DNA from: Phallus indusiatus | Lineage: Eukaryota > Basidiomycota > Agaricomycetes > Phallales > Phallaceae | Assembly (NCBI GenBank): GCA_027605045.1 | Contig: JAQFWX010000006.1 | Span: 1,488,001 to 1,552,000, forward strand | Direction: 5' to 3' | DNA length: 64,000 nucleotides | Shown here: piece after piece, positions 26,548 to 62,128 of the stretch | Position numbering within the stretch: the first letter of the stretch is position 1 | How the letters are laid out: every line of letters starts with the position of its first letter | Translations under genes and position numbers: made by a program | The notes under the pieces: model-generated | What the model was told of the DNA's origin: nothing | Database searches by the model: none | Seen by the model: the letters and a program-made list of their open reading frames with translations, nothing else

Positions 26548-28275
26548 TTAGTACTCATATGGAGCAGATGAGATGCGAATGCCTTCATTTCTTCTTCCCG
26601 ATCGCAGGATGAGTGCGGCCCGTTTTCTCATTTTAGGACAATGAACGAATATCTGTAATGGATATCCTTCCTCTACACGTCTGGTATAAACCACGCAAAG
26701 CATGGCTGCGCACGCCGTACTCAATGTGCCGTCGCCAAAAGACACAACTAGTTCGCAAAGGGAAGGACAAGGAAAAGCTGCAGTAGGTGTTGACCGATGA
26801 GACGAGGTGCCTTCCAATGTCATCGTTGAATGACCAGACTCGGTGGTAGAAACGGAGTCCAAATCCGGATCAGGTACCGGATTTTCTGTACTCGTCGGCT
26901 TGCATTCGGAAGCTTCTTTTTGTTCGAGATTTGGTACCAGCGCCGACAAACACACGAGAATCGATTGGAGACCCTCAAATCCATAGCGGAATTCTGGGTC
27001 GTGCCTGATAACTAGAGTGTCCAGACTATGCAGTGTCCCGAAAATGATCGGAAAGATAGTGTCGTCATCGTCCGAGAGGCTCGTACATCTGAAGACAATA
27101 TCCAAGTAAGTGATATTTGAAAACACAGTAGATTCTAGCAACGGATGCCAAGATCTCTGTAGATCCGATGCTTCTTCATAGGAATACGCAAGGCGTTTAT
27201 CATTGAATCGGCCGGTATAGGGAAGAGTGATATTTTTTTCTTCTTCTTCTTCTTCGTCTTCTACCCCCCCTTCTTCTTCGAAGACCAGACATATGGATCC
27301 TGAATCGGCAAATTCGATATTGAGGGACGAGAAATGCGCTTGGGACATAAGTTGAAGTAAAGATGGTGATCCTGTGAACTCCTCAGAGCAATGGGCACTA
27401 ATAGACCACTTGAAGTTTGAGGGAACTTTGATGCATTCCAAGATTGTCTCTACTATATCGGTCGTGCCATATGTAGAGAGCACAAGCCTTTGAAGACATG
27501 GTAGATCGATCACGCGACGAGTACCCTCGACGGATGCTTTGGAGCCGAATTGAAGGGAAAGTAATTCAAGACGGGGAGATAATTCGAGAATATTGAGAAA
27601 ACGACCAACATCCAGGACAAGAATACGGGGCAAATAGAGGTACAGTTCGGATAGATTTTGGAATAGAGGGTTATTTATTTCTGGGAAGTCGTCCAGAGGA
27701 AGATACTGGATGCTTTTCAAATTCGGCGCATTTCCCGAGAACAGCGTGTGAAGGAGTGTTTCATTGATGGAATCGTCAGAACCACGAAAACAAAACGTCC
27801 GAAGTTGCGGGGCGGGTTGCTGAAGGGACAAAAAGATTTGGTTAATCACCAGGTCGCTGGTTTCATCGATAGGGGGCTCATTATCGTAATCCATCTCAAC
27901 GCTCAATATTTTAAACCGATGCATCTCTCGAAATAGAAAGGAGAACACGTTTGATTCGACATAGGCATCTAATCGAGAATAATCATTAGTCTCTAGTTTG
28001 ATAGATACGTTTAACGGGGAGGAACCGGATCGTCGAAGTAGCTCTATTATGCAGGCATTCGATAACTCCGGGATTGTAAGACATGTCCACATCGTAGGAT
28101 CAGATAAAAGTGCATGTCTCCACGAACGACAAACATGAGATGTGATGATGGGAGGAGGAAGTGATTGGAGATCCAAGTGTGAACCACCGTCAACCACTGG
28201 TTCGGGTACATATGTGTCGGTATAGATTATTATTTTCCTGAATATTTCACAAGGAAGGTTGCTAAACAAAGACAT
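26548..28275 (-). CDS. F-box protein, 575 aa
   Basis: Intact single-exon member of the SHVCRSWR F-box subfamily; probable SCF substrate receptor. ATG 28275 (MSLFSNLPCEIFRK) was chosen because the frame upstream has no ATG. F-box at residues about 5-70 (IITSHVCRSWRHALLSDPTMWTC), then LLRRSGSSPLNV, HRFKILSVEMD, a PAPQLRTFCF / FSGNAPNLKSIQ leucine-rich-like region, an acidic insert of Glu/Asp at about residues 335-350, and a C-terminal PCPSLCELVVSF unit. Two decayed or frameshifted relatives flank it. A more distant decayed copy is at 43700-45160. Confidence 0.85.
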   Translation of the reverse strand: MSLFSNLPCEIFRKIIIYTDTYVPEPVVDGGSHLDLQSLPPPIITSHVCRSWRHALLSDPTMWTCLTIPELSNACIIELLRRSGSSPLNVSIKLETNDYSRLDAYVESNVFSFLFREMHRFKILSVEMDYDNEPPIDETSDLVINQIFLSLQQPAPQLRTFCFRGSDDSINETLLHTLFSGNAPNLKSIQYLPLDDFPEINNPLFQNLSELYLYLPRILVLDVGRFLNILELSPRLELLSLQFGSKASVEGTRRVIDLPCLQRLVLSTYGTTDIVETILECIKVPSNFKWSISAHCSEEFTGSPSLLQLMSQAHFSSLNIEFADSGSICLVFEEEGGVEDEEEEEEKNITLPYTGRFNDKRLAYSYEEASDLQRSWHPLLESTVFSNITYLDIVFRCTSLSDDDDTIFPIIFGTLHSLDTLVIRHDPEFRYGFEGLQSILVCLSALVPNLEQKEASECKPTSTENPVPDPDLDSVSTTESGHSTMTLEGTSSHRSTPTAAFPCPSLCELVVSFGDGTLSTACAAMLCVVYTRRVEEGYPLQIFVHCPKMRKRAALILRSGRRNEGIRISSAPYEY

Positions 28276-28845
28276 GTCGCGAAAGTTTTGTTGGGCTAGT
28301 CTGGGCTGTTGAAAAAAGTACGAGCGGCTTACGTGTGTACGAAATGTCACTACATGTCACAAGCAAAAACAATTTGAACACCGGCAGTTCGTTACTGCCA
28401 ACATCTTTGCTACCGGCATACTGTTCAACATACGAGCTGCGTCTCTGACTAGTTCTTCTTATCAAGGCTGCTGTACGCTAATAGGAGACGAAAAGACGAG
28501 CCCATTATGTAATTTTAAGTTGTCATTCAGATATTTGCCATTCGTGAATCTCGAACGGTATAGCGATACGTCTATCCCCTTCCCCGTCTCTTATCTCTCC
28601 ACTTACTACCGTTGTTTCGTGCTCCACGTGGCCCATGTCTTCATAAACGACCTCTCAATCCTTTTTCCTCTTCTCATGTAAGGGAAAGGTATACGTTTTG
28701 AGATACGCGGGTAGATAAAAAGTTAAAACAAATAATTTTAGGGACAGAGTAACTATTAATATAATAAAATAGTCAATCCAAGGTTGGTAAAGCGCTATAG
28801 TTAAGCATCCATATCTTCAAATCAAAAGAAAGACCACCCCCTCGT
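28276..28845. other. intergenic spacer
   Basis: No gene seen. About 28680-28830 is similar to 41450-41560, the 3' side of the paralogous F-box gene. Confidence 0.5.
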
Positions 28846-30479
28846 TTATTGATTCGAAAATGCATGCAAGTAATCCCACCCAATTACGATGACATTGATG
28901 GCGTCATTTTCTGGACGTTGCAGCATATCTTCTACACCTTCATCAACCTGCGGGCAACGGGCACATATCAACAATGGATAGCCCATATCGCGCCGTATGT
29001 CTGAGCATATACTGATTTTCTCGACCTGTTCTATCTTTAATGGTTCCCATAATTCCAATGTTACTGTGCATAACGAGGGGCAAAGCACGGACATCTGGGG
29101 GTCAATTTGCTGGCGAGAATATAAGCGACATGTATTTGCAAAGTCTAGCTCCAGGTTGCCTACCGAGCTCGTATTATCCGGATTCGGCAGCAATGCAGTC
29201 AAGCACGTCAAATGTGCAATGTTGGTACCATTATGGAATAGCCCGACGACTATAGACTTTAAGCTTGACATTTCAGCAAGGATAAGTCGCAATATCCATT
29301 CCTGATCCGGCAAAATATCGGACTGTAGATTCATATGAGTGATGTGTGACGATTGCATGGCACGGATCATTGGATTCCAGAGATCCCTTAATTCCTCTAT
29401 AGCTCGATATCTGCAGTTGAATGTATTGAAATTGGGTCGATCCTCGGTCGGGTCTTCTGTGAAACCAAGAGATCCGGATTGCGAACTAATTTGTGCGTAC
29501 GAAGTTCCAAAGCGCGCCTGAGACATAAATTGAAGTAGAGATGGTGATTCAGCAAAGTCAGGGAGATGCAAATCATAGATGTACCAGATGGTACTTGAGG
29601 GAAAGGTGATATGTTTGATAAACAAGCCCAACAGTTTCGTGGTAGATTTCACCACGATAGTCAGTTTTTCAAGGTGTGGTAGATGTACTTCACGATCGGA
29701 AGATGGATCGGCGACGGTGATTCGCATGTTATGAAAAACGTCGATAAAATGAAGTAATTTGAGCTGAGGGGATGCTTCCAGAAGATTAAGGAAAGAAATA
29801 AAGTGCATACGACAAGGCGGCGTGAGATGAAGTCCGAAATATTGTTGAATGCATCAGAACACGGTTTTCGGAACTCGCGAGAGAGTCGATGGTGTACTCG
29901 TTTAAGATTAGGCGCATTCCCGGAAAATAGGTTGGCTATAGCTGCAAATTTGGGATTGTAGGTTGAATTCTCGAGATGACCGTACGAGAAAGAGAACGTT
30001 TGCAATCTCGGTGCGGGTTGTTGAAAGGAAACCATAATCAGTTCAACCGATACATCGAAGACAGCTGAAAAAGGTAGTTGTTGATTACCCAACAGGTCGA
30101 GCTGCACACGCAGTACATTAAACCGATGGATTTGTTTGAAGAGAGTGAAAAGCATGATTAGTGTCTCACTACGGTCGCCCAGTTCGCATACCCAGTTCAG
30201 CTGGAGGAGCACCGTTAGAGAAGCGGATCCCGACCGGCGAAGCAACTCCATTATTCCGTCAGGTTTCATTGTGTGAATCACAAGACCTGTCCACATTGTT
30301 GAGTCTGATAAAAGAGCATGTCTCCAGGAACGGCAGACGTGAGACGCAGTGATGGGGGGCTCCAATACTTTTATATCAAATGAGGGTTCGTCAAATCCCA
30401 TGCTCGGTGCGTACTCTTCGTCATAGAGCAATATTTCCCTTAATATGTCGTATGGAATACGTTGGATTGGAGAAGTCAT
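28846..30479 (-). pseudogene. F-box gene with a single frameshift
   Basis: Close paralogue of the intact gene at 41632-43251. ATG 30479 (MTSPIQRIPYDILREILLY), F-box and middle region are open to about 29830. There, after AFNNIS, one base is missing relative to the paralogue, sending the frame into unrelated sequence. The adjacent frame carries the rest (LHLTPPCRMHF, then LNLLEASPQLKLLHF) to the stop at 28846. No intron explains the change. Confidence 0.8.
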
Positions 30480-31366
30480 GCTGAACCACTCGCTTGTTCA
30501 ACAGTCCGAGGGTTCGCGGGTTAAGAACATGATTTATGTAACGCGTGACGCATGCCGGATGCAGCCGTATCCACGTACTTCACTGCGAAGTTCGAACACA
30601 AAACGACCTAAAACGATACCCGTGGTATATAATAAGAATTTTTTTGGTATGGTATCCGATATTGAAAACCTTGCACTCTACCATCCACGTAATCAAAGCC
30701 GGAAACATCATATGACTCCACGAGCGAAAAATATGAATGCGGCTAGGGAAAATAATTACTCTCAAAGTCTAATTCAAAAATATCCTAAAAATTATATTAA
30801 TGATGCTGTCTATGGATCTCTGACATCACTTAATTAATATTTTTGAGTGAACGTTTATTGACGGACACACCAAACCTGGTTCGAATGCACATTCACCTTG
30901 GCACGACATCACAAATAATTCACGTCCTAACTCAGCACGAAACGACAAATAAAACACTTTTCGTGTGGTCCAATACAAGTTATATGGATCTGAGTAGCCA
31001 CTGGTTTACCATTTGTCCATTTTTTTCAATGCATATTACATAACAGGTGACACTGAAATTGACGTTATACCAAGGAAAGAACAAGATTAATATTATGGAT
31101 TACCTATACTTTACGTCAAAAGTAACCTACCTTTCGTCTGTAGCACTGATAGAACCCCGGTTCATCATCTATGCCATTTCAATCAACTCATGATGGTGAC
31201 TGGACGCGGAACTGGTATTCATATGGAGCGTTGTTAAGAAAGAGTAAAACTTGCTTATTATATTGCTGTAAGTATATGTTCATCTTTTAACTCCCACATG
31301 AAGCAGATAGGACGCAATCGGAAGCCTCCCTATCCAATATTAACTATTACCACCCATACCTCTGTC
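30480..31366. other. 5' region of the F-box copy, duplicated
   Basis: About 30480-30775 is similar to 43252-43620 upstream of the intact paralogue (shared pieces TAACGCGTGA, CCATCCACGTAATCAAAGCC and GACTCCACGAGCGAAAAA). The duplication therefore included the promoter. The remainder to 31366 shows nothing. Confidence 0.6.
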
Positions 31367-37200: not shown

Positions 37201-37760
37201 GTGTTTTAGGTTTATTGTACGCGTAGAAGGTCTAAAGGGACAACGGGGCAGAAGAAAGCAACCCTCGGCTCGAGTCGAGGCGAGCATTCGCAACACATCA
37301 TATCTTGTCTGAGGTGTCAGCAGATATCATGTCTTATATATGTGCGTTTATCGGCAAGCAGTAACTCGCTGTTCAAGTATTTTTCGTAAAGTTCTGGATC
37401 GACGGTTCAGCCTGAAGTTTCCTGACTGCATTTGACGCTTTTGTTCTAGCTTCTGTTCAAACTCTATTTCTAGAGAAGGTTTACGTTGAGAATTTGAATA
37501 TAAACAAGAAGTGATTCAGCGTAAGAGTAGAGAACAATCTTTCCCGCGAAAGATGTCAGACGAATACCTGAACTGGACGGGGGTAAACGAAAGGGAGCGA
37601 ACATTGTCGAGCAAACGATTGCAAGGACAATACTACAAGCTTTCTTTATTTATCAAGATTTTTACATATTGGGATGTGTGCAGGAAATGCAATAACTTTT
37701 ATCACAAGGAGGAACCACAGTTTAGGGGTAAAAAAGAAGATAATGGAGAAACGTCGTGAA
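34252..37760. other. long intergenic stretch, no firm gene
   Basis: A 69-codon frame with coding-like composition begins at ATG 34647 (LGSPALASPASISS, KGKRCFTREEDNGD) and ends at 34856. It could be a gene fragment. A minus-strand PYDIVPKI peptide near 34560 hints at an F-box scrap. Frames at 35531, 36287, 36936 and 37511 have no support. Confidence 0.4.
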
Positions 37761-38742
37761 CTAATCCCTTTCATAACACATGGTCAATGAAAGCGCTCCA
37801 TTTTGACTCGATATACTCACTGTTATTCAGACTACAGTGGAAGCTAGAAGATAATTAAATTGAGTACTAAAATTGATTTAAATAGTCAATATACTTACAA
37901 GGCTCGGCAACGAAATGGGTAGGACCTGGGAAATTTATTCAATAACTCCAGGCGTCAATGTGTTTACAGATATGGCTTACTGGCTGGGAACAAGCCTAGG
38001 ATAATCGATAAATTATAATGAAGCATACAACAGTACAAATGAAGTTATTTGCCTATAAAAAATGCCATGAGATTATGAGAGAATATATCAAATCAATCGA
38101 TTACTCACTAGTGTTATCAGCAGCTATCATGAGCGAATTGCCAAATCTCTCATTAAGAGGGGTATAAACCTGATAGACAATATACTTACTAGGCTCGGCA
38201 ACATCGAAATGAGTAGGGCCTATGAAATTTATTCAATAACGGCAAGCATAGAAGTGTCCGCAGGCACGACTTACTGGCTGGGAATAAACCTAGGATAATT
38301 GATAAATAATGAAGAAGACAACAATACAAACGAAGTTATTTACCTATAAAGAAGGTGATGAGATCATGAGAGAATATATTAGATTATAATCAATCACTTA
38401 CCAGTGGCATCAGCAGCTATCATGAAAAAATTTCCAAATTTCTCATTAAGAGGGGTATAAACCTGATTAGTCAATATACTTACTGGGCTCGGCAGCGTTG
38501 AAATGGGTAGGACCTATGAAATTTATTCAGTAATGGCAGGCGTCGAAGTGTCCGCAGATATGACTTACTGGCTGGGAATAAACCTACAGACAATTTTTTG
38601 AGATAGCTTGTTAGAAGGCGCAAATCAACGTCATGGCCAGTGTGAAATCTCTGAAACCCATACCACTGGCAGGGGCGGCGGAGACAGATACAAAGAGAAC
38701 GGAGATGATAGAAACGAAGAACGCAGAAATGATGAATTGCAT
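37761..38742 (-). CDS. secreted repeat peptide encoded by tandem micro-exons
   Basis: No known family recognised. I read ten exons giving 99 aa: 38742-38664, 38583-38569, 38513-38484, 38416-38402, 38289-38275, 38219-38190, 38123-38109, 37995-37981, 37925-37899, 37819-37761. The first encodes a strong signal peptide (MQFIISAFFVSIISVLFVSV, then SAAPAS), so the product is secreted or vacuolar. The eight middle exons are 15, 30, 15, 15, 30, 15, 15 and 27 bases. All are multiples of three and all in phase 1, with GT-AG ends. They encode repeats of the type LFPASPTHFNAAEPTADAT. The last exon gives a 20-aa tail with the only mature Cys and Arg. The repeat has no dibasic Kex2 site. Start chosen as the ATG with a CAAAAC context. 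Function unknown; a small secreted effector-like or peptide-precursor role is inference. Confidence 0.72.
37899..38583 (-). repeat. tandem repeat of about 294 bp containing three micro-exons per unit
   Basis: Equivalent micro-exons recur at a spacing of 294 bp (38569, 38275, 37981; 38484, 38190) with small changes (291-293) elsewhere. Introns are repeated along with exons, so whole exon-intron units were duplicated. The third unit lacks the last 15-base exon and has a 3-base deletion in the 27-base exon. Confidence 0.85.
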
Positions 38743-41631
38743 GTTTTGAAAATAGACCGAAGAGTGCTAATGACACTGGGTTTTGAGAGCTCAAGACGAG
38801 TGGCGGAATGGAGACTTTTTAGTCGGGTTATATACGTTTTGGATGTCCAAGGGAGTGCCAGGGTAATGTGATCTAACTTGTGAAAATCAGGTTAGCACAA
38901 GTAAATTTTCATCCAAAATAATCAGACGATCCTGACTCTGAAACTGATGCCTGAAATTTGAGAAATTGCGCAGTTATCGTGTGAAGTGATTGTACTTTCA
39001 CGATGTAACAAGCCTATCATCCTATGATTTGCTTCCGAAAATGTCAGCCGTCATCGGGGAGTCTACAAAGTAGTCCAGAGACCCAAATTGGACGGTCCGA
39101 ATCGAGCCATACGGTCACTTCTCTGAATTGAATGATGCTAAACACTAACGACAGCGGCCGTGTCTGTTTTTCAAATCTTTTTAATTTATACATTTTATTT
39201 ATCCATCAACAATTCTCTTCATTTCAAAAACCTTTGCCACGTCTGATTATTTCTATCATTTTACGGAGCTATAGTCGTGAAAATGTTTGGACTACTGTAA
39301 GTCCGGCATTTACTGACAGCTCGGGGAATCACACGCACGCGTGGTGATCTTTGCATAATAGACCGTGGTGCTCTCAGGGGGAATGCAATTAAGCACGCTT
39401 CGATTCGACTCAGGGCGGGCACCCGCCCGAAATGCCCATTGAAAAACCCTTGTTGTTATCTAGAGTGAAGTTTTTTATCTGGTCATTGTGGAGGGCTCAG
39501 CAACACTCAGCCATATGTATACTCAGGCTGGACGTTTTCTTACTGTACCTTGGGCGTGGCGCTCGTGTGTCGAAGTGGATACTTTCCCGGATTTGACTCA
39601 TTTTTCATCTTCCATTTTGCTTCTTATTTTAGTGGAGGAAGGCTTAAGAATTGTACATAGGGATGACTTTCCGGTTATGAGTTTGCCGTCTGCCAGCCCT
39701 TCACATAGCGCTTGATTGAGCTCTACGACCCTACAACCTGATTCGACTTGACCTAACCTAAGAAGGATTAAAACTGTCACTGGAGAGATAAACGTACCTG
39801 CAGCCTTCTGTATTCATCCGCTTTGTCTCCCAACGTGTTCATTTTTTTGTGTGCATGTGGACTTATTTTAACTTTATTAGGAATCGCCCACCACACAGGG
39901 AAAATAAGGGGAACGGGATCATTGATTCACGCAAACACAGTTGGTAGATGTCATTCACTGAAAATCATTGGATTCACCTGTTCTTTCGATCGTAATCATC
40001 CGCTACAGTCACATATCGTAATATCTGCAGTGTATGTATCACCAGACCACCATCGGAGAACCCAGCTAAATGCTTCAAGGTAGATTTGCGCCAATCATTG
40101 CCATTCCACGAGCTATACCTAAATTGTAAAAAATAGTTCAATTCTCATCGTTTTTTACAATTAAAATAGTTGTTCAAAGGTCGTTTACTACTATTAGTAG
40201 TTCCGACGATCCGCGCGGGGATTACAAACCTGTGTGTGTAAATCAGTTTATAGTCCGTCAGGTCGCGTCAGGGTGTGTCCCCATGTCGACAGGACTGTAC
40301 AAAAATATAAACACCAGTATGTACATAACTCGTTCTGTCCCATGACCAGGGTTTGGTGAGGCTTTCTGGAAGGTGCTGCAACTAAGGAGTTGGATGAACA
40401 TTACTTATGTCAATACCAAAAACTGAACTCGAAACAGACAAAGTATTATATTATTTTCTTTCCTGTCCTTTCGGTGAGATGATGATCTCATTCTTTAGGC
40501 GTTTCGGTAATTATAACGAATCCTACCTCATTTCGGAACCGCTCGAGTCTATTTTGACATCGCATCTTTGTTTTTCCCACTCATTATACTAGATCAAAAA
40601 GGTTATCTTCTTCGGTATATGCCTGTCATGTTCAACCTGGTGGAGTTCAATTTGACAAAATTCAACCAATGTATTGCACATGGTTACCTGAGATGCTAAG
40701 ATCTAGAACAAAATATTCGAGTTGTCTTCTCAACTTGCACCTTGACATATCCTTCTAGCATCCTTAGATTATATCTGCTTTCGAGATTATGTCTTTGTGC
40801 AATTGTCTCGCCGTTGATGACATTCTTTTGTAAACTCGTATTATTGCCGATGGCGACATCGTCGTTGGTTTTTTTGCACATACTTAGCTCGACTGTCTTT
40901 TTTTAGTAAATGTCTATAAACCATTTGCCTTCACATATATGCAGGGCAGTTGGACATGAAGTTTCGAATTGTGTGAAGTTTTATCAGTCAGCGCCTAAAG
41001 GGACGTTATTAATAGGCCTCGGAACCGCGCCCGTCACATTACTGCATGCATTACCACTGAGTAATAGGATTTACTGTTTAAATTAGAGACTGATGCGAAA
41101 ATATTTTTGACAATCTATTGTATTAGTCACTGTTAGCTCACACGGTTCACGCTGAATAAAGTTAGCAGAGTTAATATTTATTTTCTAAGCTTGTTGTGCA
41201 CCCTAAATCGTTCTTTCGACAGGGTCAAAGTTAATAACATCCGAGCGATTCCCATCCAGAAAGGCAGGAGTAGCCGCGCAGTTTCGCGCACGCGCAACTT
41301 ACATAAAGTAGGCAAAAGTCTGCAGCCATCTGCCCGGTGACTATAAACTATTCCGTTTCGGCCTGGTAGTTATTTGTAGATTGTGAAACTCCGACGCTGA
41401 TGCACACATACTTTTTTATTCTCATTTCCTATTTTTTCACGAAAAAGGCATAATTTTTGGGATATACGAGTAAATAAAAATGAAACAAATTTGGGGGACG
41501 AGTAGGTAATCAAAATAGTCATCCAGAGTTGGTAAAGCGCTATGGTTCAAACATTCAGATCTAAAAATCTTCTTACATAAACAAAAGAAAAACCGCGCGT
41601 AGGTCCATTACTTCAAGATGCTCCAACCCGG
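38743..41631. other. long intergenic stretch, no gene seen
   Basis: Frames at 39132, 39488, 39823 and 40407 have no family resemblance. About 41450-41560 is the duplicated 3' flank shared with 28680-28830. Confidence 0.45.
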
Positions 41632-43251
41632 TTATGTTGGGTAGATAGCGACCCCAATAGCGTCGTCTAACCGCTGCAGTGTATGTTCCAGTACACCTTT
41701 ATCCGTTCGCGGGTAATTGGCCCATATTTGCAAAGGATAGCCTATCTTCCGCCGTACGTCCGAGCATTTACTGATTATCTCGGTCTGTTCCGTCTGTAAT
41801 GGCGCCCATAACACCAGTTCTACCGTGCGTAACATGGGGCAAAGGATGGGCATTTGAAGACCAAATTGCGAAGCAGGATCAAGGGCAGAGGTATCTGCAG
41901 ACTCGGAGTCCGGTTCTACTAGGCTCCCTACCGAGTTCGTACCATCCGTCTCTGTTATCAACGCTTTCAAGCACATGATACGTGCCATATTCGTATCTGC
42001 GGGAGATTTCCAGGTTGATCCGATGATCAAAGACTTCAAGTTCGACATCTCAGCAAAAATAATTTGCAATAGCCGATCGTCATTTCGCAGATCATCTGGC
42101 TGAAGATCCATGCGAGTAATATGTGATGATTTCAAGATACGTATCATTGGCTGCCAGAGACTCCTTAATTCCTCTACGGTGCTATATTGGCAGGTGAATA
42201 TATTGACATGGGGTCGATTATCGGTTGGGTCTTCTGCAAAAGAAAAGGATCCGGATTGCGGACTAATTCGAGTGTCCAGATCTGTAAAGCGCGCCTGGGA
42301 CAATAATTGACGTAGAGACGGCCATTTAACAAAGTCGGGAAGACACGGAATAGAGATGTGCCATATGGTATTTGAGGGAAAGGTGACATGTTTCATAAAC
42401 AGGTCCGATATTTCCGCGGTAGTGTTCACCTCGAGCTTGAGCTTTTCAAGGTGGGGTAGATGTACCTTTCGTTCGGAAGATGGGTCGGAGATGACTTGGA
42501 CATCATGAAAAATATCATGAAAATGAAATAGTTTGAGGTAGGGGGATGCCGCCAGAAGATCGAGAAGACTGTCAAACCACATTAAAAAAGGCGGGGTGAG
42601 ATAAAGCTCCGATATATTGTTGAACGCAGCAGAATGCGGCTCTCGGAACTCGCGGGAAAGTCGATGGTGTACTCGTTTAAGATTAGGCGCATTTCCGGTG
42701 AATAGGTCGGTTATAGCTGCGTATTCGGGATTAAAGTTTCTACCGATCCCGAAATGACTGTATGAGAAAGAAAGCGTTTGTAATGTCGGCGCGGGTCTTT
42801 GAAAGGAAGACATAATCACTCCGACTGATGCCTTCATGATCTCCGAAAAAGGATATCGATTATCCCACAATTCAATACGCATGTACAACGCGCTGAAGCG
42901 ATGAATTTGTTCGAAGAGGGCGGAAAGCATAGCCAGGATCTCCTTGTAGCCCATCTCGCATGCATTGTTCAGGTGGAGGACCACCGTTAGAGGAGCAGAT
43001 CCCGACCGGCGAAGCAGTTCCATTATTCCGTTGGGTTTCATTGTGTTAACCAGAAGACATGTCCACATTGTTGGATCCGATAGAAGAGCGCGTCTCCATG
43101 AACTGCAGACGTGAGACACGGTGATGGGGGGTACCAGTAGTTTTATATCGAAGAAGGGTTCGTCGAGTCCCATAATCGGTGTATTCTCGTCGGCATAAAG
43201 CATGATTTCCCTTAATACATCGTACGAAATACGCTGGATTGGAGAAGTCAT
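41632..43251 (-). CDS. F-box protein, 539 aa
   Basis: Intact single-exon F-box gene and probable SCF substrate receptor. ATG 43251 (MTSPIQRISYDVLREIMLY). F-box with ITVSHVCSSWRRALLSD (one Arg of the usual CRSWR is Ser here), then LLRRSGSAPLTV, PAPTLQTLSFSYSHF, FTGNAPNLKRVHHRLSREF, and a leucine-rich-like second half (LAASPYLKLFHFHD, HLPHLEKLKLEVN), ending in a CPMLRTVELVLWAP unit. It is the undamaged partner of the frameshifted copy at 28846, and the duplication covers both flanks. Confidence 0.85.
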   Translation of the reverse strand: MTSPIQRISYDVLREIMLYADENTPIMGLDEPFFDIKLLVPPITVSHVCSSWRRALLSDPTMWTCLLVNTMKPNGIMELLRRSGSAPLTVVLHLNNACEMGYKEILAMLSALFEQIHRFSALYMRIELWDNRYPFSEIMKASVGVIMSSFQRPAPTLQTLSFSYSHFGIGRNFNPEYAAITDLFTGNAPNLKRVHHRLSREFREPHSAAFNNISELYLTPPFLMWFDSLLDLLAASPYLKLFHFHDIFHDVQVISDPSSERKVHLPHLEKLKLEVNTTAEISDLFMKHVTFPSNTIWHISIPCLPDFVKWPSLRQLLSQARFTDLDTRISPQSGSFSFAEDPTDNRPHVNIFTCQYSTVEELRSLWQPMIRILKSSHITRMDLQPDDLRNDDRLLQIIFAEMSNLKSLIIGSTWKSPADTNMARIMCLKALITETDGTNSVGSLVEPDSESADTSALDPASQFGLQMPILCPMLRTVELVLWAPLQTEQTEIISKCSDVRRKIGYPLQIWANYPRTDKGVLEHTLQRLDDAIGVAIYPT

Positions 43252-43699
43252 GCTGAACTACTCGTTTGTAATTTGTGCAACGGGCAGGCAACGGTCGAGT
43301 CGGGGACACGATGTAACGCGTGATGCATACCGGATGCAGCCGAATACTCTTCACAGCTTGAACGCGCATTCATTTTCGCACGACATTACAAAAAAAAACC
43401 ACCTACGTACATACTCCCAAAAAGACCTAAAGGAAACTCGTGATGCGAATATACTAGAAAATTTTTTCATAATCGATATCGAAAAACATGTACTCCACGG
43501 ATCATCATCACCATCCACGTAATCAAAGCCGGAAACAAGCGTATGACTCCACGAGCGAAAAAATATGTTGAAAGCGACTAGGGAAAAAGTTGACTCGAGG
43601 CCTAATTCGCAATCTCGTGGGAACTAGAAATGATTCCATGGATCTCGGACTTCACACGTAGTATCTTTCTGAGTTAACGTTATTGATGTGAAAGCGGAT
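43252..43699. other. 5' region of the F-box gene, duplicated
   Basis: Similar to 30480-30775; see that entry. No gene seen. Confidence 0.55.
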
Positions 43700-55332: not shown

Positions 55333-55924
55333 GCGCGCGTTGCGCGCTCGTACACGGCGTGATGCCCGTGACATCACGTCGCTTAGGCTCGGCTTGGGCG
55401 CCTGGCATTTAGCTGTGTCAGGGCCGCACGCCGCGTCGTCGTTTTATTACCAAAGCTTGTCTTTGGTTCCATTACAGCATGTAAAAATCTCGTGTAGTGA
55501 GACAAGCGCCCAAGTTTGCAGGATCACATGCCTTCAGCTGGTATGAGTAGGCTTGATACGAAACATTGAGACTTTTTTTGCTATAATTAATGAGTGTCTG
55601 GCATGATCAATTGCTGATGATTTTTTTGACCATATTTTGTCAGTAAATTCCAGAGATATAATGCTTGAAAGTGAGCTTTTCAGGAACAGATTCCGTCGAT
55701 TATATAAGTGAATCACATGACATGTTTTCACCGTACAGTTTGTATTATATAATAAACATTCGTCATAATTGTCATATGATGTCATCGATGATTTCACGAG
55801 ATAAATAGCTTGGATTCAATATTTCGGAAACAACTCTTCTTCGCTCTAACAGTCTTCAATCTTCAAAGGTTGGTCTTTCATTTGACCTACATGTGGATTC
55901 AAGTTTAAATTATTCAACAGATTC
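55333..55924. other. 5' region of the Helitron gene
   Basis: No gene. Contains a CGCGCGCGTTGCGCGC palindrome near 55332-55347, a second TGTCAGGG-like start near 55417, and a CCAAAG/CTTTGG hairpin near 55450-55466; A/T-rich from 55550 on. Confidence 0.5.
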
Positions 55925-58900
55925 ATGATGTCTCATAATAATATACGATCTCGTATTATCGGCAGTAAAGCCAATGTAAATGTTTCAGGCAATGAAGCCA
56001 ATTCGAATATATTAGGCAATGAAGCCCAGTGTTTTTCTGAAGTACAACAAAATCACTCGTCATTATCATATTCTCATTTCGCTATTCTTACAGTCCCCCA
56101 AAAACAGCATGTTATGAATAGATTACTGTCCTTAAATCCGACAATCAGATCTCTTCGACTATTGGTCCAACTTCATACTGATATTGAAGTTGATGATTCG
56201 CACACAAAATCTGTTTTATTAGATAAATTCAATCTGCATTCTTGTAGTGATTATTGTTTAATTACCATTCGTGATGCTTTGAAGTGTGGATTAGACAGTG
56301 TCGCTTCTATTGGTACCTCAGATATTGATACAGCTCGTCAATATATCACAGATGAGTTTAGTCGAACAGAATCTAATTATCGGCAAATAAATATACCTGC
56401 TCAATCTCAAAATTGTCTCGTTCGTGTTGAACCAGTTGCTTTAACACATTATTTACACTCACTTATATCCCAATCAAATATAAGTCGGAAACAAATAGAC
56501 AGATTGATAAAACTACATGACTGTAGTATTTCAGCACGATTGAATATAAAGAAAACTGTTGATCTTTTAAAAAAACATTCTTGTTCAAACAAATGTCTCA
56601 TAACCTTCGGTGATGCTTCTCGGGCAAATTTAACTATACAAAAATCGTACAATACTGATGATATACGATCAATTTATACACAGTTCAAGGGATGTAGAAA
56701 AAGGAAGACACCTGATACAGATGAACTATGTTCATCATCTAAAAGGCAGCGCATACAGAATGTCAGTTGGCCACAGATTTTGACTGATACAGAGAAAATT
56801 GAAATTATGGATGAATTTCGTACAATGTATACATCTCAAAATTTTGGTCGTAGAGAATGCTCGTTTTGTGGTATCGCAGAAAAAATCTCTGAAATTCATA
56901 CCTTTGGTATGTCCGATTTGAATATAGATATTCTACAAAATGCTGTTAATGAAGTTCACTATCGTAATTTACAACAGCATATTCAAGCATATGACCCTAC
57001 AACTATAATTGACAATAACTATCAAGTCTGTCATACTTGCTATCGGTCTATTAAGAGAAATAAATTTTTTGAAATCCCACTTCATGCATACAGTAATAAT
57101 TGTTGGATCGGTCATGTTCCTGCAGAATTACAAAATTTGACATTTCTTGAAGAACAATGTATCGCTCGTGCTCGTTGTACAAAATGTACTGTGAAAATAG
57201 AATCGGGTCCAACAGGTCAATATAAAACAAAGGGAAATGTCTGTATACTATCGCAAGAACCTGGTTCACTTCAACGAGTATTACCACCCCCTATAAATAC
57301 TTTAACTGATGATATTGTCGTTATTTTCGTAGCATCACAAGAGTCTGAAATTACTACTGAGACTTTGAAAAAATCACCTCTGTTAGTACGAAGATCTAAG
57401 ATCATTAATGCTTTAACTTGGCTTAAACGAAATAATCCTTTTTATCAGGATATTGATATCTCACTTGAAAATTTATTGAATGATTACCCTGAAAATAATA
57501 TTCCGAAATCTTTTGCAATACAGCAAGTCTTCCGAAATAATATGACGAATAGTGAAAATATATCCTATGTGACAGATGCAAATGATGATTTATTCACAGA
57601 ACACTCTGACAGTATAACAATGACATCAACAGCTATAATAGATACTGAAAATATCGATTTAACCTATAAATCTCGTAAAATATTCGCTTTAAAACAATTA
57701 ACAGAACATAATCAACCTTTTGTCAAATTTCCGAGTGCTCAAGAACCTCTATGCACATGGAACAATCCTAATTTATATACTTATTTGTGGCCAACTTTAT
57801 TTCCTTATGGTACAGGTCTATTAGAAGATCCTCTTCGTAATGATAAGAATCTTGGATTGAGAAAAATTCATTTAAAAGATCATGTTCGACACTTATTACA
57901 TTTAACTGATACTCGTTTTCAGACTCATTTGACATTTATATATGTTATGATGAATATCATACAGCGGCGAACTACAACATATCAATCTAGATTAGCATGT
58001 AAAAGATCGTGGTTCCCGAAAGTATCGCAAGCACTATCAAAAATCTCTCCTGAATCAATTCAATCTTTCGAAGAAAAATTACAGAAACATATACCTATAG
58101 CAGGTGAAAATGAAAATGATAGTGAAAAAGCAATTCTTCAGATTTTGAAATATGTAGACTATATCTCCGAAGACATTACAGGTTCTACTTCAGAAGTACA
58201 TGTAATGCGAGAAGAAATTCATTCAATTTCTCGTGAAGTTGGTTTGCCACATTTGTATATAACTATAAATCCTGCTGACTTTTATAATCCTATTTATCAA
58301 ATACTGGCAGGTCGTAATATAAACTTAGACTCTATTTTTGATGACTTGAATCATAATCATGAAAATATCACTCGAGCAAAAACTGTCGCTGAAAATCCTA
58401 TAGCAGGTGCCAAGGGCTTCAATTCATTGATGAATACATTTATTAAAATTTTACTCGGAACTGAAAGAGAAAACAAAGTCGGTATTTTCGGTAAAGTTAG
58501 GTCATATTATGGTGTCGTAGAATCTCAGAACCGAGGTTCACTCCATTGTCACTCTCTCGTATGGTTAGAAGATGGTTTACCACCAAATATTGTAAAACGA
58601 AAACTTCAAATGGAAGAACAATGGAAACAACAGTTTTTTAGATGGCTTGAAGATATTATTTCGTTAGATTTTCCGGATCAAACACTGCCATATTCATCTG
58701 AAAATGAACCTTACATTAAAACTCCCTTAATGAGTACCATGTTAGATCCGAAATTAAATTTCAATAACCTTAATTGGCTGCAAGATCTACGAAATGTATT
58801 GGAGAATGTAGGACAGATACATGTACATAATAATACCTGTTTTAAACATCTGCCTAAAATGGCCCAAAAATACAGAGAACCTGACAAAGATTGTCGTTTC

Positions 58901-61900
58901 CAATTACCAAGACCTACTGTTGTTGAAACATATTACGATGAAGATGGTCATATACATTTAAAATGTTCTAATGGTCATATGAATGGATTTAATGATATAT
59001 GTGTATCGTGCTTAAGATGCAACATGGATATCAAATATGTTGGTTCTGGTACTATAGCCTTAGCAATGATCGAATACATAACAAATTACATAACAAAACT
59101 ATCACTTGATACTTCTACAGTCTTCTCAGCTCTTTGTGCAGCAATCAAGTCGTTAGAAAATTCTTCTTCAACCCGAAATACATTCGGTGAAAATAGCGAG
59201 GAACATTCTCGATTACTTCTTGTTAAAACCTGTAATAACATGATAGGTAAACGAGAATTGTCAGGTCAACAAGTTGCATCATTTTTATGCAATATTCCAA
59301 ATCACTACACAAATCACTCATTCGTCAAGGTATATTGGACAAAAATACTAAGATTTACTTCTGGTACTCTATTTAATTCTGCAACATCAGATTCTTCAAC
59401 TGATGAATCAGCCATAGAACATGACTTAAATGAATCTGAATCTCATGAAATAATTGATACCTCTAACAACCTTTCCATTGATTCACTAATGATTTTGGAT
59501 AAAAATAATCTGCACACTCAACACTATCAATCTTCGATCATTGATGATATTTTTTATCGCCCATTAGAACTTGAACACATGGCTTTGTGGGAACAGCTAC
59601 AAAACTTCAAAAAGGAAAAACTAAAGAATCGTCATACATCAAATAGCACTAATAATTCCAATATCTTTCGTTTTCATCCTAAACACCCTTTGTATAATAC
59701 CCACTGTTTGAAACAATTCATTACCCCCATGACACCTGTTTTAATTGGTTGTTCAATCCCTCGTCGTGATAAATCGGACCAATTTGATAAGTATGCTGCA
59801 GCTATGCTAACTTTATTTAAACCATGGTCTAGAGACTTAAATAGTATTTTAAAATCTGAAGAAGACACATGGTCAGAAGTATATAATAACACCTGGTCTG
59901 ATTTTAAACCCGAACATAAAAAAATTATTGATAATATGCAATCTGTTTATGAATGTCGAGATGCTGCCCATGACTTATCTGTAACTCGTCGCCAGCGTTT
60001 AATCGAACTTGGCATGAATTCCCTCGCTACTAATACTATCAAACAATCTAATTCAACCTTTGAAAATGATCCTATTTGGATACTTGGAATGCAAGACCTA
60101 CAACCTGGAGTAAATTCTGAATTAAACGAAAACCTATTAGACATTCCTCTTTGTATTAATGAAAAATATGAGCAGGTTGCGCTACATTTTTACGAGATAG
60201 CCTCAAATAGTAATGTCTATAACCATACAAGTAATTGTGATTATATTCATCCGACACATTATACAGTTGATCGTGGCACACATCTTGATATCGAATATGC
60301 TAAAAATCAGCATAAAACACTCATGAAACAGAAAGAATATAAAATAAATTCCCAGAAAATCTCCTCTGAAACACCTCAAAATAATTCTCTTGAATTACGC
60401 CATTCTAACAATGAATCCTCTAATGATAATGCTTCACTAGCTTATCTGACTACTTTACACGATGAATATCTCGCTATTCAAGAGAAATTACAGCAATCGA
60501 ATCCAATTAGATGGAATAACTTACTGCCCTATCAACGTATATGTTCAATATTAGTCGAAAAATATACATTTAATACTGAACAACAGGCTGCATTTTTACT
60601 ATTTGCTGATCACTATGGTAAATCACTAAATAACGATATCCCTCCCATTCGAATGCTAATAGCTGGTCCCGGTGGTACAGGTAAATCGCAAATCTTCGAT
60701 GCTATCAAAGAGTTTTTTATGTGTTGCAACCACTCCCAATATTTAAAAGTATGTGCCCCAACCGGTTTAGCTGCCAATAATATTGGTGGTTCAACGATAC
60801 ATTCCGAAGCTTCATTAAGAGTCAATAGAAAGAACTTACATGCTAATACACCTCAAGGACGAAATTTGAGAGAAAACCTTGAAAATCGCTGGCAAAATAT
60901 AACATCTCTTATCTGCGATGAAATATTTTTCTTAGGGGCAAAAGATAATAGCATTATGTCTGAAAATCTTAATATCGCCTGCGCGAACTCTTCCCATTCT
61001 CCATATGGAAATTTAAATATTTTATTTGCTGGTGATCCTGCTCAATTACCTGCCCCATGTGCTACACCTCTGTATAACCATAATGCGATTACACTCTACC
61101 GAACAGGAGAGTTTAACACTCTCAACGAGAAAGACAAATATACTGCAGAAGGCATTTTTGCATGGAGACAGATTGACATGTGTATTGTTTTGAAACAAAT
61201 TATGCGACAAAAAGAACCACACTTTCAATCGTTATTAACCCGATTGCGACATGGTAACTGCACTCGAGCTGATTATGCTTACTTACAACAATTCATTATA
61301 CAAAATCGTTCGGAACATGTAAACACCAAACTATTATCAGTGGCCAACTGGATACACAATCGAGAGTTTTTTGCACCACTTATTTGCTACACAAATTTAA
61401 TTCGAGATATTCACAACTTCAAATGTGCTGAATCATTCGCAAAACTCACGAATCAAGAATACCACTACTATCATTCATGCGATACGCTTAAAGGCACAAA
61501 TACTACTCTAAAAAATGCTATTGCAGAAGCTGCATGGAATATGCGTATAAAAGAGGCTAATGATCTTGCTGGAAAATTACCTCTTATTCCAGGTATGCCA
61601 GTTTTTTTAACAGAAAATGTTGCAACTGAACTTGGTCTTTCCAATGGCTCAGAAGGAACTTTGATAAATTTAAAGTATTATGAGTATTCCAACCGTCGAT
61701 ATCCCATTTATGCAACAGTTGAATTTCCTTCCTATCACAATCCATGGTCAAACTCAAAACAAGTAATCATTCAGCCCATAAACTCAGATATCAACTTCAA
61801 ATATCCAAAAACAGATAAAGTTTTTCCACTAAAAAGAACACAGCTACCACTGATACCTGCATTTGCATACACTGCTCATAATTCTCAGGGCCGTTCATTA

Positions 61901-62128
61901 AATGCAGCACTAATTGACTTAGAAGGATGCCCAAGTATTGCAACTGCATATGTAATGCTATCGCGAATCCGCACTACCTCCGGTATTTCTATCCTTAGAC
62001 CTTTCTGCTTCGAAAGGATTCATTCACACATTCCAGGAGAAATTCGCGATGAAATAAAAAGGCTTGATGACTTACACACTGACACACTGAGAACTGCAAA
62101 AATAAATTTAAAATGGTATTATGATTGA
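55925..62128 (+). CDS. Helitron replication initiator-helicase (Rep-Hel), 2067 aa
   Basis: Transposase of a rolling-circle Helitron. One exon, ATG 55925 to TGA 62126-62128. N-terminus: Cys-rich region with ECSFCGIAEK, then CHTCYRSI and NCWIGHVPAELQNLTFLEEQ, the DUF6570-like segment common in fungal Helitrons. Rep domain (Helitron_like_N): LPHLYITINPADF, the HUH metal site His874-Cys-His876 in GSLHCHSLVW, and the paired tyrosines Tyr1051 and Tyr1055 in EYITNYITK. PIF1-type helicase: Walker A GPGGTGKS (1581-1588), Walker B ICDEIFF (Asp1665/Glu1666), and C-terminal HNSQGRSLN with AYVMLSRIRTT. All key residues are present, so it may be active. Codons are strongly A/T-rich compared with the neighbours. 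Confidence 0.95.
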   Translation: MMSHNNIRSRIIGSKANVNVSGNEANSNILGNEAQCFSEVQQNHSSLSYSHFAILTVPQKQHVMNRLLSLNPTIRSLRLLVQLHTDIEVDDSHTKSVLLDKFNLHSCSDYCLITIRDALKCGLDSVASIGTSDIDTARQYITDEFSRTESNYRQINIPAQSQNCLVRVEPVALTHYLHSLISQSNISRKQIDRLIKLHDCSISARLNIKKTVDLLKKHSCSNKCLITFGDASRANLTIQKSYNTDDIRSIYTQFKGCRKRKTPDTDELCSSSKRQRIQNVSWPQILTDTEKIEIMDEFRTMYTSQNFGRRECSFCGIAEKISEIHTFGMSDLNIDILQNAVNEVHYRNLQQHIQAYDPTTIIDNNYQVCHTCYRSIKRNKFFEIPLHAYSNNCWIGHVPAELQNLTFLEEQCIARARCTKCTVKIESGPTGQYKTKGNVCILSQEPGSLQRVLPPPINTLTDDIVVIFVASQESEITTETLKKSPLLVRRSKIINALTWLKRNNPFYQDIDISLENLLNDYPENNIPKSFAIQQVFRNNMTNSENISYVTDANDDLFTEHSDSITMTSTAIIDTENIDLTYKSRKIFALKQLTEHNQPFVKFPSAQEPLCTWNNPNLYTYLWPTLFPYGTGLLEDPLRNDKNLGLRKIHLKDHVRHLLHLTDTRFQTHLTFIYVMMNIIQRRTTTYQSRLACKRSWFPKVSQALSKISPESIQSFEEKLQKHIPIAGENENDSEKAILQILKYVDYISEDITGSTSEVHVMREEIHSISREVGLPHLYITINPADFYNPIYQILAGRNINLDSIFDDLNHNHENITRAKTVAENPIAGAKGFNSLMNTFIKILLGTERENKVGIFGKVRSYYGVVESQNRGSLHCHSLVWLEDGLPPNIVKRKLQMEEQWKQQFFRWLEDIISLDFPDQTLPYSSENEPYIKTPLMSTMLDPKLNFNNLNWLQDLRNVLENVGQIHVHNNTCFKHLPKMAQKYREPDKDCRFQLPRPTVVETYYDEDGHIHLKCSNGHMNGFNDICVSCLRCNMDIKYVGSGTIALAMIEYITNYITKLSLDTSTVFSALCAAIKSLENSSSTRNTFGENSEEHSRLLLVKTCNNMIGKRELSGQQVASFLCNIPNHYTNHSFVKVYWTKILRFTSGTLFNSATSDSSTDESAIEHDLNESESHEIIDTSNNLSIDSLMILDKNNLHTQHYQSSIIDDIFYRPLELEHMALWEQLQNFKKEKLKNRHTSNSTNNSNIFRFHPKHPLYNTHCLKQFITPMTPVLIGCSIPRRDKSDQFDKYAAAMLTLFKPWSRDLNSILKSEEDTWSEVYNNTWSDFKPEHKKIIDNMQSVYECRDAAHDLSVTRRQRLIELGMNSLATNTIKQSNSTFENDPIWILGMQDLQPGVNSELNENLLDIPLCINEKYEQVALHFYEIASNSNVYNHTSNCDYIHPTHYTVDRGTHLDIEYAKNQHKTLMKQKEYKINSQKISSETPQNNSLELRHSNNESSNDNASLAYLTTLHDEYLAIQEKLQQSNPIRWNNLLPYQRICSILVEKYTFNTEQQAAFLLFADHYGKSLNNDIPPIRMLIAGPGGTGKSQIFDAIKEFFMCCNHSQYLKVCAPTGLAANNIGGSTIHSEASLRVNRKNLHANTPQGRNLRENLENRWQNITSLICDEIFFLGAKDNSIMSENLNIACANSSHSPYGNLNILFAGDPAQLPAPCATPLYNHNAITLYRTGEFNTLNEKDKYTAEGIFAWRQIDMCIVLKQIMRQKEPHFQSLLTRLRHGNCTRADYAYLQQFIIQNRSEHVNTKLLSVANWIHNREFFAPLICYTNLIRDIHNFKCAESFAKLTNQEYHYYHSCDTLKGTNTTLKNAIAEAAWNMRIKEANDLAGKLPLIPGMPVFLTENVATELGLSNGSEGTLINLKYYEYSNRRYPIYATVEFPSYHNPWSNSKQVIIQPINSDINFKYPKTDKVFPLKRTQLPLIPAFAYTAHNSQGRSLNAALIDLEGCPSIATAYVMLSRIRTTSGISILRPFCFERIHSHIPGEIRDEIKRLDDLHTDTLRTAKINLKWYYD

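Follow-up and report, generated by a model that had tools for sequence, protein, structure and literature searches.

The DNA analysed here, referred to below as the window, is a stretch of 64,000 nucleotides from Phallus indusiatus, covering bases 1488001-1552000 of a contig that is 2.04 Mb long and belongs to an assembly of 67.2 Mb and 206 contigs. Its minus strand carries, from 38742 to 37827, a predicted gene of ten exons, with lengths of 79, 15, 30, 15, 15, 30, 15, 15, 27, and 17 nt. Predicted exon 1 (79 nt, 38664..38742) contains the ATG, the signal-peptide-like leader MQFIISAFFVSIISVLFVSVSA, and the start of the mature peptide, and ends at the donor GTATGG. It is followed by eight predicted micro-exons: exon 2 (15 nt, 38569..38583), exon 3 (30 nt, 38484..38513), exon 4 (15 nt, 38402..38416), exon 5 (15 nt, 38275..38289), exon 6 (30 nt, 38190..38219), exon 7 (15 nt, 38109..38123), exon 8 (15 nt, 37981..37995), and exon 9 (27 nt, 37899..37925). 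Predicted terminal exon 10 (17 nt, 37827..37843) ends with the stop codon TGA. Each of the eight internal exons is a multiple of three and is entered and left in phase 1, as the first-pass annotation had proposed for eight consecutive exons of 15 or 27-30 nt; the exon ends, lengths, and phases that we re-derived agree with that prediction. Spliced in this way, the gene would have an open reading frame of 258 nt, which encodes 85 amino acids and a stop, and 162 of the 258 coding nucleotides lie in the eight predicted symmetrical exons of 15-30 nt.

The micro-exons lie in a tandem array with a period of 294 bp and 2.4 copies, placed by Tandem Repeats Finder (TRF) at 37882..38586 on the minus strand; a second repeat search gave the same spacing (294/294). 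One unit consists of exon A (15 nt), an intron, exon B (30 nt), an intron, exon C (15 nt), and a long intron. Unit 1 (exons 2, 3, and 4) and unit 2 (exons 5, 6, and 7) are complete, and unit 3 comprises exon A (exon 8), an intron, exon B (exon 9), and about 15 nt more, beyond which it no longer aligns with the other units. The upstream edge of the array coincides with the acceptor of exon 2. In other words, whole exon-intron units of 294 bp have indeed been duplicated, as had been claimed, giving two full units and a partial third. The only exonic length change is one of 3 nt: exon B of unit 3 is one codon shorter than its counterparts in units 1 and 2. In the introns, units 1 and 2 are offset from each other by indels of 1, 2, and 3 nt.

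The predicted introns are, in order, 80, 55, 67, 112, 55, 66, 113, 55, and 55 nt long. The micro-exon donors are GTAAGT, GTAAGC, or GTGAGT, and every acceptor of the predicted gene ends in TAG or CAG. For comparison, the gap between profile matches in the actin genes of the assembly is 58 nt, and the gaps in its chaperonin genes are 46, 48, 50, 50, 55, 58, and 59 nt (a gap was counted where two neighbouring matches shared no more than one profile position; pairs with larger overlaps or missing positions were left out). Measured against these, the four 55-nt introns have an ordinary length, the three of 66, 67, and 80 nt exceed it somewhat, and the two of 112 and 113 nt reach about twice the usual size. 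A histogram of intron lengths behind strong donors in 264 kb had no peak relative to reversed DNA. The gene is bracketed at gene-like distances by two motif matches on the minus strand: a TATA-box-like TATATAA (38828..38834), 86-92 nt upstream of the ATG, and a candidate poly(A) signal, AATAAA (37645..37650), about 177 nt past the stop. AATAAA also occurs in every copy of the A-B intron (38522-38527, 38228-38233, and 37934-37939, minus strand), where it adjoins a branch-like site and could act as a premature poly(A) signal within the gene.

How readily could such a chain of splice signals arise by chance? We scanned both strands of 264 kb around the gene for chains of micro-exons of 6-45 nt (multiples of three) separated by introns of 45-120 nt, with donor, acceptor, and branch-like weights that were set by hand from the fungal consensus and were untrained. 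The phase-1 chain of exactly these eight exons scores 36.6, and the runner-up chain in the 264 kb (both strands) scores 8.6. The best chain in reversed DNA reached 8.8, that in complemented DNA 9.6, and the highest-scoring chain among 20 Markov shuffles (each of 264 kb, scanned on one strand) 16.3. Because the copies of a repeat are not independent, we also simulated 3000 arrays, each a tandem triplication of a 294-bp stretch drawn at random from the local DNA, with similar divergence; none of the 3000 reached a score of 20, and the maximum was 12.8. Taken by itself, unit 1 has a score of 17.0, which exceeds the best shuffle only slightly, so that the evidence from a single unit is strong, though not beyond doubt. 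In addition, seven strong donors (GTRAGT/GTATGT) fall within 920 bp on the gene strand, whereas none of 2268 intervals sampled from the 264 kb holds more than five, and these seven are not independent, since the copies share ancestry.

Without the restriction to phase 1, the best chain scores 37.8; its phase is 0, and it uses another stretch in place of exon 8, which belongs to the phase-1 chain only. A scan restricted to the window likewise gave a top chain of 37.8, with controls at 9.4 or below. Because the phase-0 chain is also open, an open frame alone is weak evidence and does not pick the phase; the phase is chosen by the leader exon, not by the openness of the frame. The layout is statistically strong; splicing, secretion, and function are predictions.

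Units 1 and 2 differ at 9 of 60 exon positions and at 30 of 207 intron positions, so that the exons are no better conserved than the introns in this pair of units; the splice sites differ at 1 of 24 positions, an effect that lies in the expected direction but is small. Rows of unit 3 more than about 15 nt past exon B, being non-homologous, were left out of these conclusions. Among the repeats themselves, synonymous and non-synonymous changes number 4 and 4 between repeats 1 and 2 (P 0.17), 2 and 2 between repeats 1 and 3 (P 0.34), and 4 and 1 between repeats 2 and 3 (P 0.02, marginal and uncorrected for three tests); the synonymous excess is therefore non-significant in two of the three comparisons. 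No selection at the protein level is evident, because the exons diverge between copies as much as the introns do. This pattern is compatible with a young gene or with a disordered product under weak constraint, but also with decay. Under the latter reading, the locus would be a minisatellite made of duplicated DNA rich in introns, either in decay or without function from the start, whose splice signals are remnants and whose product, if any, is of no use. The equal divergence of exons and introns, the non-significant constraint in two of three comparisons, the absence of relatives in the protein search described below, and the truncation of unit 3 all point this way. Against this reading, the copies retain a usable donor and acceptor at every exon present, no stop interrupts the frame between the ATG and the TGA, the exonic indel is a single codon, and the score of the chain is beyond the reach of the simulated arrays. 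We consider decay unlikely, although it has the largest chance among the alternatives weighed here.

The predicted product consists of MQFIISAFFVSIISVLFVSVSA-APAS, followed by GLFPASPTHFNAAEPTADAT, GLFPASPTHFDVAEPTADNT, and SLFPASPTHFVAEPSSTVV, that is, a hydrophobic leader and three related repeats (LFPASPTHF...). Over 19 residues, the hydropathy of the leader peaks at 2.5 (residues 3-21) and falls to 0.5 or less past residue 24, and an A-rich, cleavage-like site is present as well. Of the earlier claims about the protein, a signal-peptide-like start and a repeat peptide encoded behind it are supported at the level of the predicted splicing, with secretion itself a prediction. The 63 residues that remain past the likely cleavage are rich in Ala, Pro, Thr, and Ser and carry a net charge of -6 (K+R-D-E). 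Since the 85-residue protein contains no Lys, Arg, or Cys (nor Trp or Tyr), it has no Kex2 site, no disulfide, and no internal trypsin site. Disorder and O-glycosylation of the mature peptide are guesses from its composition. With 85 residues, three repeats, and a leader-like N-terminus, the product fits the descriptive class of fungal repeat-containing small secreted proteins, again on the basis of predicted secretion. The precursors of basidiomycete peptide pheromones are recognised at the C-terminus by a CaaX box. We rejected this identity, because the predicted protein ends in SSTVV and, having no Cys, has no CaaX box. A pheromone-family search of the assembly had no match anywhere, in the controls either, and is uninformative.

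Searches for relatives returned little beyond the locus itself. The DNA of the gene has one match in the assembly, which is this locus, and a six-frame search with the 85-residue protein also has one match, to exon 1 only. The exact exon-A word occurs three times in the assembly and the exon-B motif twice, in every case at this locus. A looser exon-A motif occurs at eight places, three here and five elsewhere, and none of the five lies near an exon-B match; we treated these five as chance, and four of them fall into two pairs, with the same word on different contigs in each pair. In a collection of 5.8 billion proteins, the predicted protein has no relative, and an artificial longer version of the repeat, used to cover a wider length range, gave 17 candidates, none with E <= 1. 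Pfam and PDB likewise held no match to the predicted protein. The search for the repeat peptide that the first-pass annotation had called for thus yields no relative in the protein collection and exon 1 alone in the six-frame assembly. As a control, a search with the product of a neighbouring gene recovered that product and ten relatives, with identities of 31-41%, all but one of the ten coming from a single source; close relatives of the fungus therefore seem to be thinly represented, and the homologue null is weak. Absence from protein collections would in any case say little, because a gene of this kind would often be mispredicted elsewhere.

Matches to hydrophobin, actin, and chaperonin profiles partly recur on different contigs at equal or near-equal scores, which suggests that the assembly holds more than one haplotype. 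The adjoining 3-kb stretch at 39700-42700 matches only itself and, at 65-73% identity, paralogues (7 of 7 candidates scored). The gene and its 3-kb flank therefore appear to be single in the assembly, despite the apparent presence of multiple haplotypes. Two longer queries gave, among the matches listed (39 of 64 and 3 of 4 candidates scored), only matches at 65-87%; as even the self-match is missing, these lists are incomplete.

Several features of the neighbourhood can be recorded here. The gene sits within a cluster of F-box-like paralogues on the minus strand (26548-28356, 28846-30497, and 41632-43257), with further matches at 65-73% on the same contig; those matches of the F-box-like neighbours that were tested fall below Pfam's cut-off. 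On the plus strand, an open frame of 2080 residues (55886-62128) with the domains Helitron_like_N, PIF1, and DUF6570 looks like a Helitron transposase. The assembly contains 39 matches to the hydrophobin family, which, like the Helitron and the F-box-like neighbours, would suit a mushroom-type basidiomycete. About 0.5 kb upstream of the gene, at about 39259-39687 in minus orientation, lies a repeat element of which a degenerate 3' end is present; other copies in the genome (L042, L043, and L044) end in an A run, like a non-LTR retrotransposon. The stretch at 39259-39586 matches C176 and C78. Three stretches were considered as diverged paralogues of the gene and rejected: they instead hold the 3' end of this A-tail-ended element, and BLAST of the three against the micro-exon gene returned short chance words only.

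If one intron at a time were retained in the transcript, the end of the protein would be altered in eight of nine cases, with products of 43-90 amino acids. The ninth case is intron 6 (38124-38189, minus strand, 66 nt), which is without an in-frame stop and, if retained, would lengthen the frame by 22 codons and leave the protein end unchanged. The two longest introns invite a further reading, in which the exons are joined as predicted while introns 4 and 7 are each a pair of abutting introns, spliced in two steps via a zero-length exon, or in which use of the inner acceptor ends the protein early (...ADATGK-stop). Within intron 4 (112 nt, 38290..38401), the sequence TATAG|GTAAAT at 38344/38343 divides the intron into 58 and 54 nt, both near the usual intron size of this genome, and unit 2 keeps the site in intron 7 (37996-38108, minus strand) as TATAG|GCAAAT, with parts of 56 and 57 nt. 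Yet the inner donor of unit 2 is GC rather than GT, an AG followed by GT is frequent by chance, and a phase-1 stop codon directly follows the inner site. Two-step or early-terminating splicing of this kind seems to us quite improbable. The form TATAG|GCAAAT also suggests that a zero-length exon, or pair of abutting introns, may have decayed in the second copy.

The micro-exons could also be used selectively. The first-pass annotation had stated that any exon can be skipped without loss of frame, and as arithmetic this holds completely: all 256 subsets of the eight micro-exons keep the frame, and they specify 224 distinct proteins of 31-85 amino acids, all 224 open to the same stop. On this basis, the locus might be a working fungal micro-exon gene, in which the regulated skipping of frame-neutral exons would yield many secreted variants, as in schistosomes. 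Beside the arithmetic and the signal-peptide-like leader, there are fungal precedents for variable splicing: five versions of the mRNA are described for SP7, a secreted effector with repeats from a fungus (PMC4617103), and the P450 genes of Phanerochaete that bear micro-exons were called likely candidates for alternative splicing, which was experimentally observed for one of that micro-exon-rich basidiomycete set, CYP63 (PMC1184071). For Schizophyllum commune, one paper gives two counts. In the main count, exon skipping makes up 1% of the alternative events in coding regions, against 43-44% for intron retention; a second count lists 1,527 skipping events in coding regions, against 7,851 alternative splice sites (PMC5034255). 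Because of the second count, skipping cannot be dismissed, but the first speaks against it, as do the comparatively low levels of skipping described for fungi (PMC6142364) and the donors of the micro-exons themselves, which are strong and near-uniform (GTAAGT, GTAAGC, GTGAGT) and give no sign of weak, regulated exons. Regulated skipping therefore has, in our estimation, a small chance of being the right account, somewhat below that of decay. A bolder version would make the locus a fungal micro-exon system with an origin independent of those in schistosomes and aphids, a tandem phase-1 cassette whose exons are mixed and matched into up to 224 secreted peptides, with two-step splicing of the long introns in addition; this we hold to be a long shot.

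The reading that we favour, with modest confidence, is that a 294-bp tandem repeat, found once in the assembly, carries eight predicted in-frame micro-exons that would be spliced, most likely constitutively, into an 85-residue, likely secreted repeat peptide. Each short intron would be recognised across itself (intron definition), which we infer because most of the introns here are near the gaps of 46-59 nt in the actin and chaperonin genes. Under intron definition, the size of an exon would hardly matter, and all exons would normally be joined. We accordingly expect mostly full-length mRNA, with skipping possible, in view of the micro-exons in the P450 genes of a basidiomycete and of the two counts for Schizophyllum commune. 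The gene itself would have grown by duplication, as DNA, of a unit of three micro-exons. Since the exons run from phase 1 to phase 1, unequal exchange inside the introns would add or remove whole repeats without a frameshift, and the number of repeats could consequently change quickly. The mature product of roughly 63 residues, acidic, rich in Pro, Ala, Thr, and Ser, and probably disordered, may be a small secreted protein specific to the lineage, with its site of action in the cell wall or beyond the cell.

If this gene model holds, it provides a clear fungal case in which the repeats of a secreted protein are encoded as a chain of micro-exons, and its frame-neutral units would let repeat number vary by DNA exchange within introns. 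Exons so short are generally hard for gene finders. Such genes would be easily missed, because their exons are short, because the six-frame search saw exon 1 only, and because the product offers no internal tryptic cleavage. If skipping were proved real, the strategy of producing secreted variants from micro-exons would extend to fungi.

It remains to compare the gene with known systems. The micro-exon genes (MEGs) of schistosomes (DeMarco et al. 2010) reportedly combine a signal-peptide exon with many short symmetrical exons. The gene described here has the same predicted order, a signal-peptide-like exon and then a long series of small symmetrical exons, any of which could be left out without loss of frame, and its predicted exons agree with the description of MEGs as genes whose coding sequence lies mostly in symmetrical exons of 36 nt or less. 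It differs in that its exons derive from one duplicated 294-bp unit and in that the searches led to one gene, not to families. No match to MEG families appeared in the protein collection (whose helminth coverage is uncertain), Pfam, or PDB. The likeness is thus one of layout, with no sequence relation found, which is how the first-pass annotation had put it when it drew the parallel by analogy only.

The bicycle genes of aphids combine a CYC motif, Cys-Tyr-Cys, with an exon structure that invites comparison. They are putative effectors with many small exons of constant phase, and duplicated units occur in the megacycle genes; their internal exons are almost all in phase 2, about 17 exons are present on average, and CYC motifs are characteristic (PMC9168663). 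The gene here has ten exons, with phase 1 throughout its internal exons, and its product has no Cys and no Tyr. By both phase and motif, we rejected membership of this group.

Among fungi, close to a third of the Phanerochaete chrysosporium P450 genes contain micro-exons, of 2-10 codons, and introns of 45-55 bp are frequent in this gene set (PMC1184071). These genes share with ours the basidiomycete setting, the range of micro-exon sizes, and the short introns, but they encode enzymes, and a tandem chain of duplicated micro-exons is absent from the excerpted description. SP7 of Rhizophagus irregularis resembles the predicted protein in being fungal and in having a signal peptide followed by imperfect hydrophilic repeats, and differential splicing is reported to give its transcript five versions (PMC4617103). 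In contrast, the SP7 repeats carry Kex2-type [KR]R sites (PMC5293756), and several SP7-like members have an NLS; for the SP7-like genes, one conserved intron before the first repeat is mentioned, and micro-exons are not, in the excerpt of a further source (PMC11333574). With no Lys and no Arg in its 85 residues, our product was rejected as a Kex2-processed repeat protein or SP7-like effector. Rsp3 of Ustilago maydis is another secreted repeat protein, length-polymorphic among isolates, and the excerpt describing it leaves an encoding of its repeats by micro-exons unmentioned (PMC5923269). We would predict a similar length polymorphism among isolates for the gene presented here.

A 2024 paper stated that functional microexons were previously undescribed in filamentous fungi and reported one in Xlr2 of Trichoderma virens (PMC11121469). 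Xlr2 is therefore a precedent for a functional fungal microexon; it concerns a single microexon that serves as a switch in a transcription factor, whereas the gene here would have a whole series of them in tandem and a secreted product. Among the matches listed in a search of the open-licence literature, itself a weak guide, no title or start of an abstract concerned a tandem micro-exon gene for a fungal secreted protein. The earlier remark that no fungal counterpart has been described was too strong in view of SP7 (PMC4617103) and the Phanerochaete P450 genes (PMC1184071), and it stands to the extent that neither is described, in the excerpts of these sources, as a tandem chain of micro-exons in a secreted peptide. 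Micro-exons, and a secreted repeat effector with several splice forms, were already known in fungi; the new part is the predicted arrangement of micro-exons as a tandem chain that encodes a likely secreted peptide.
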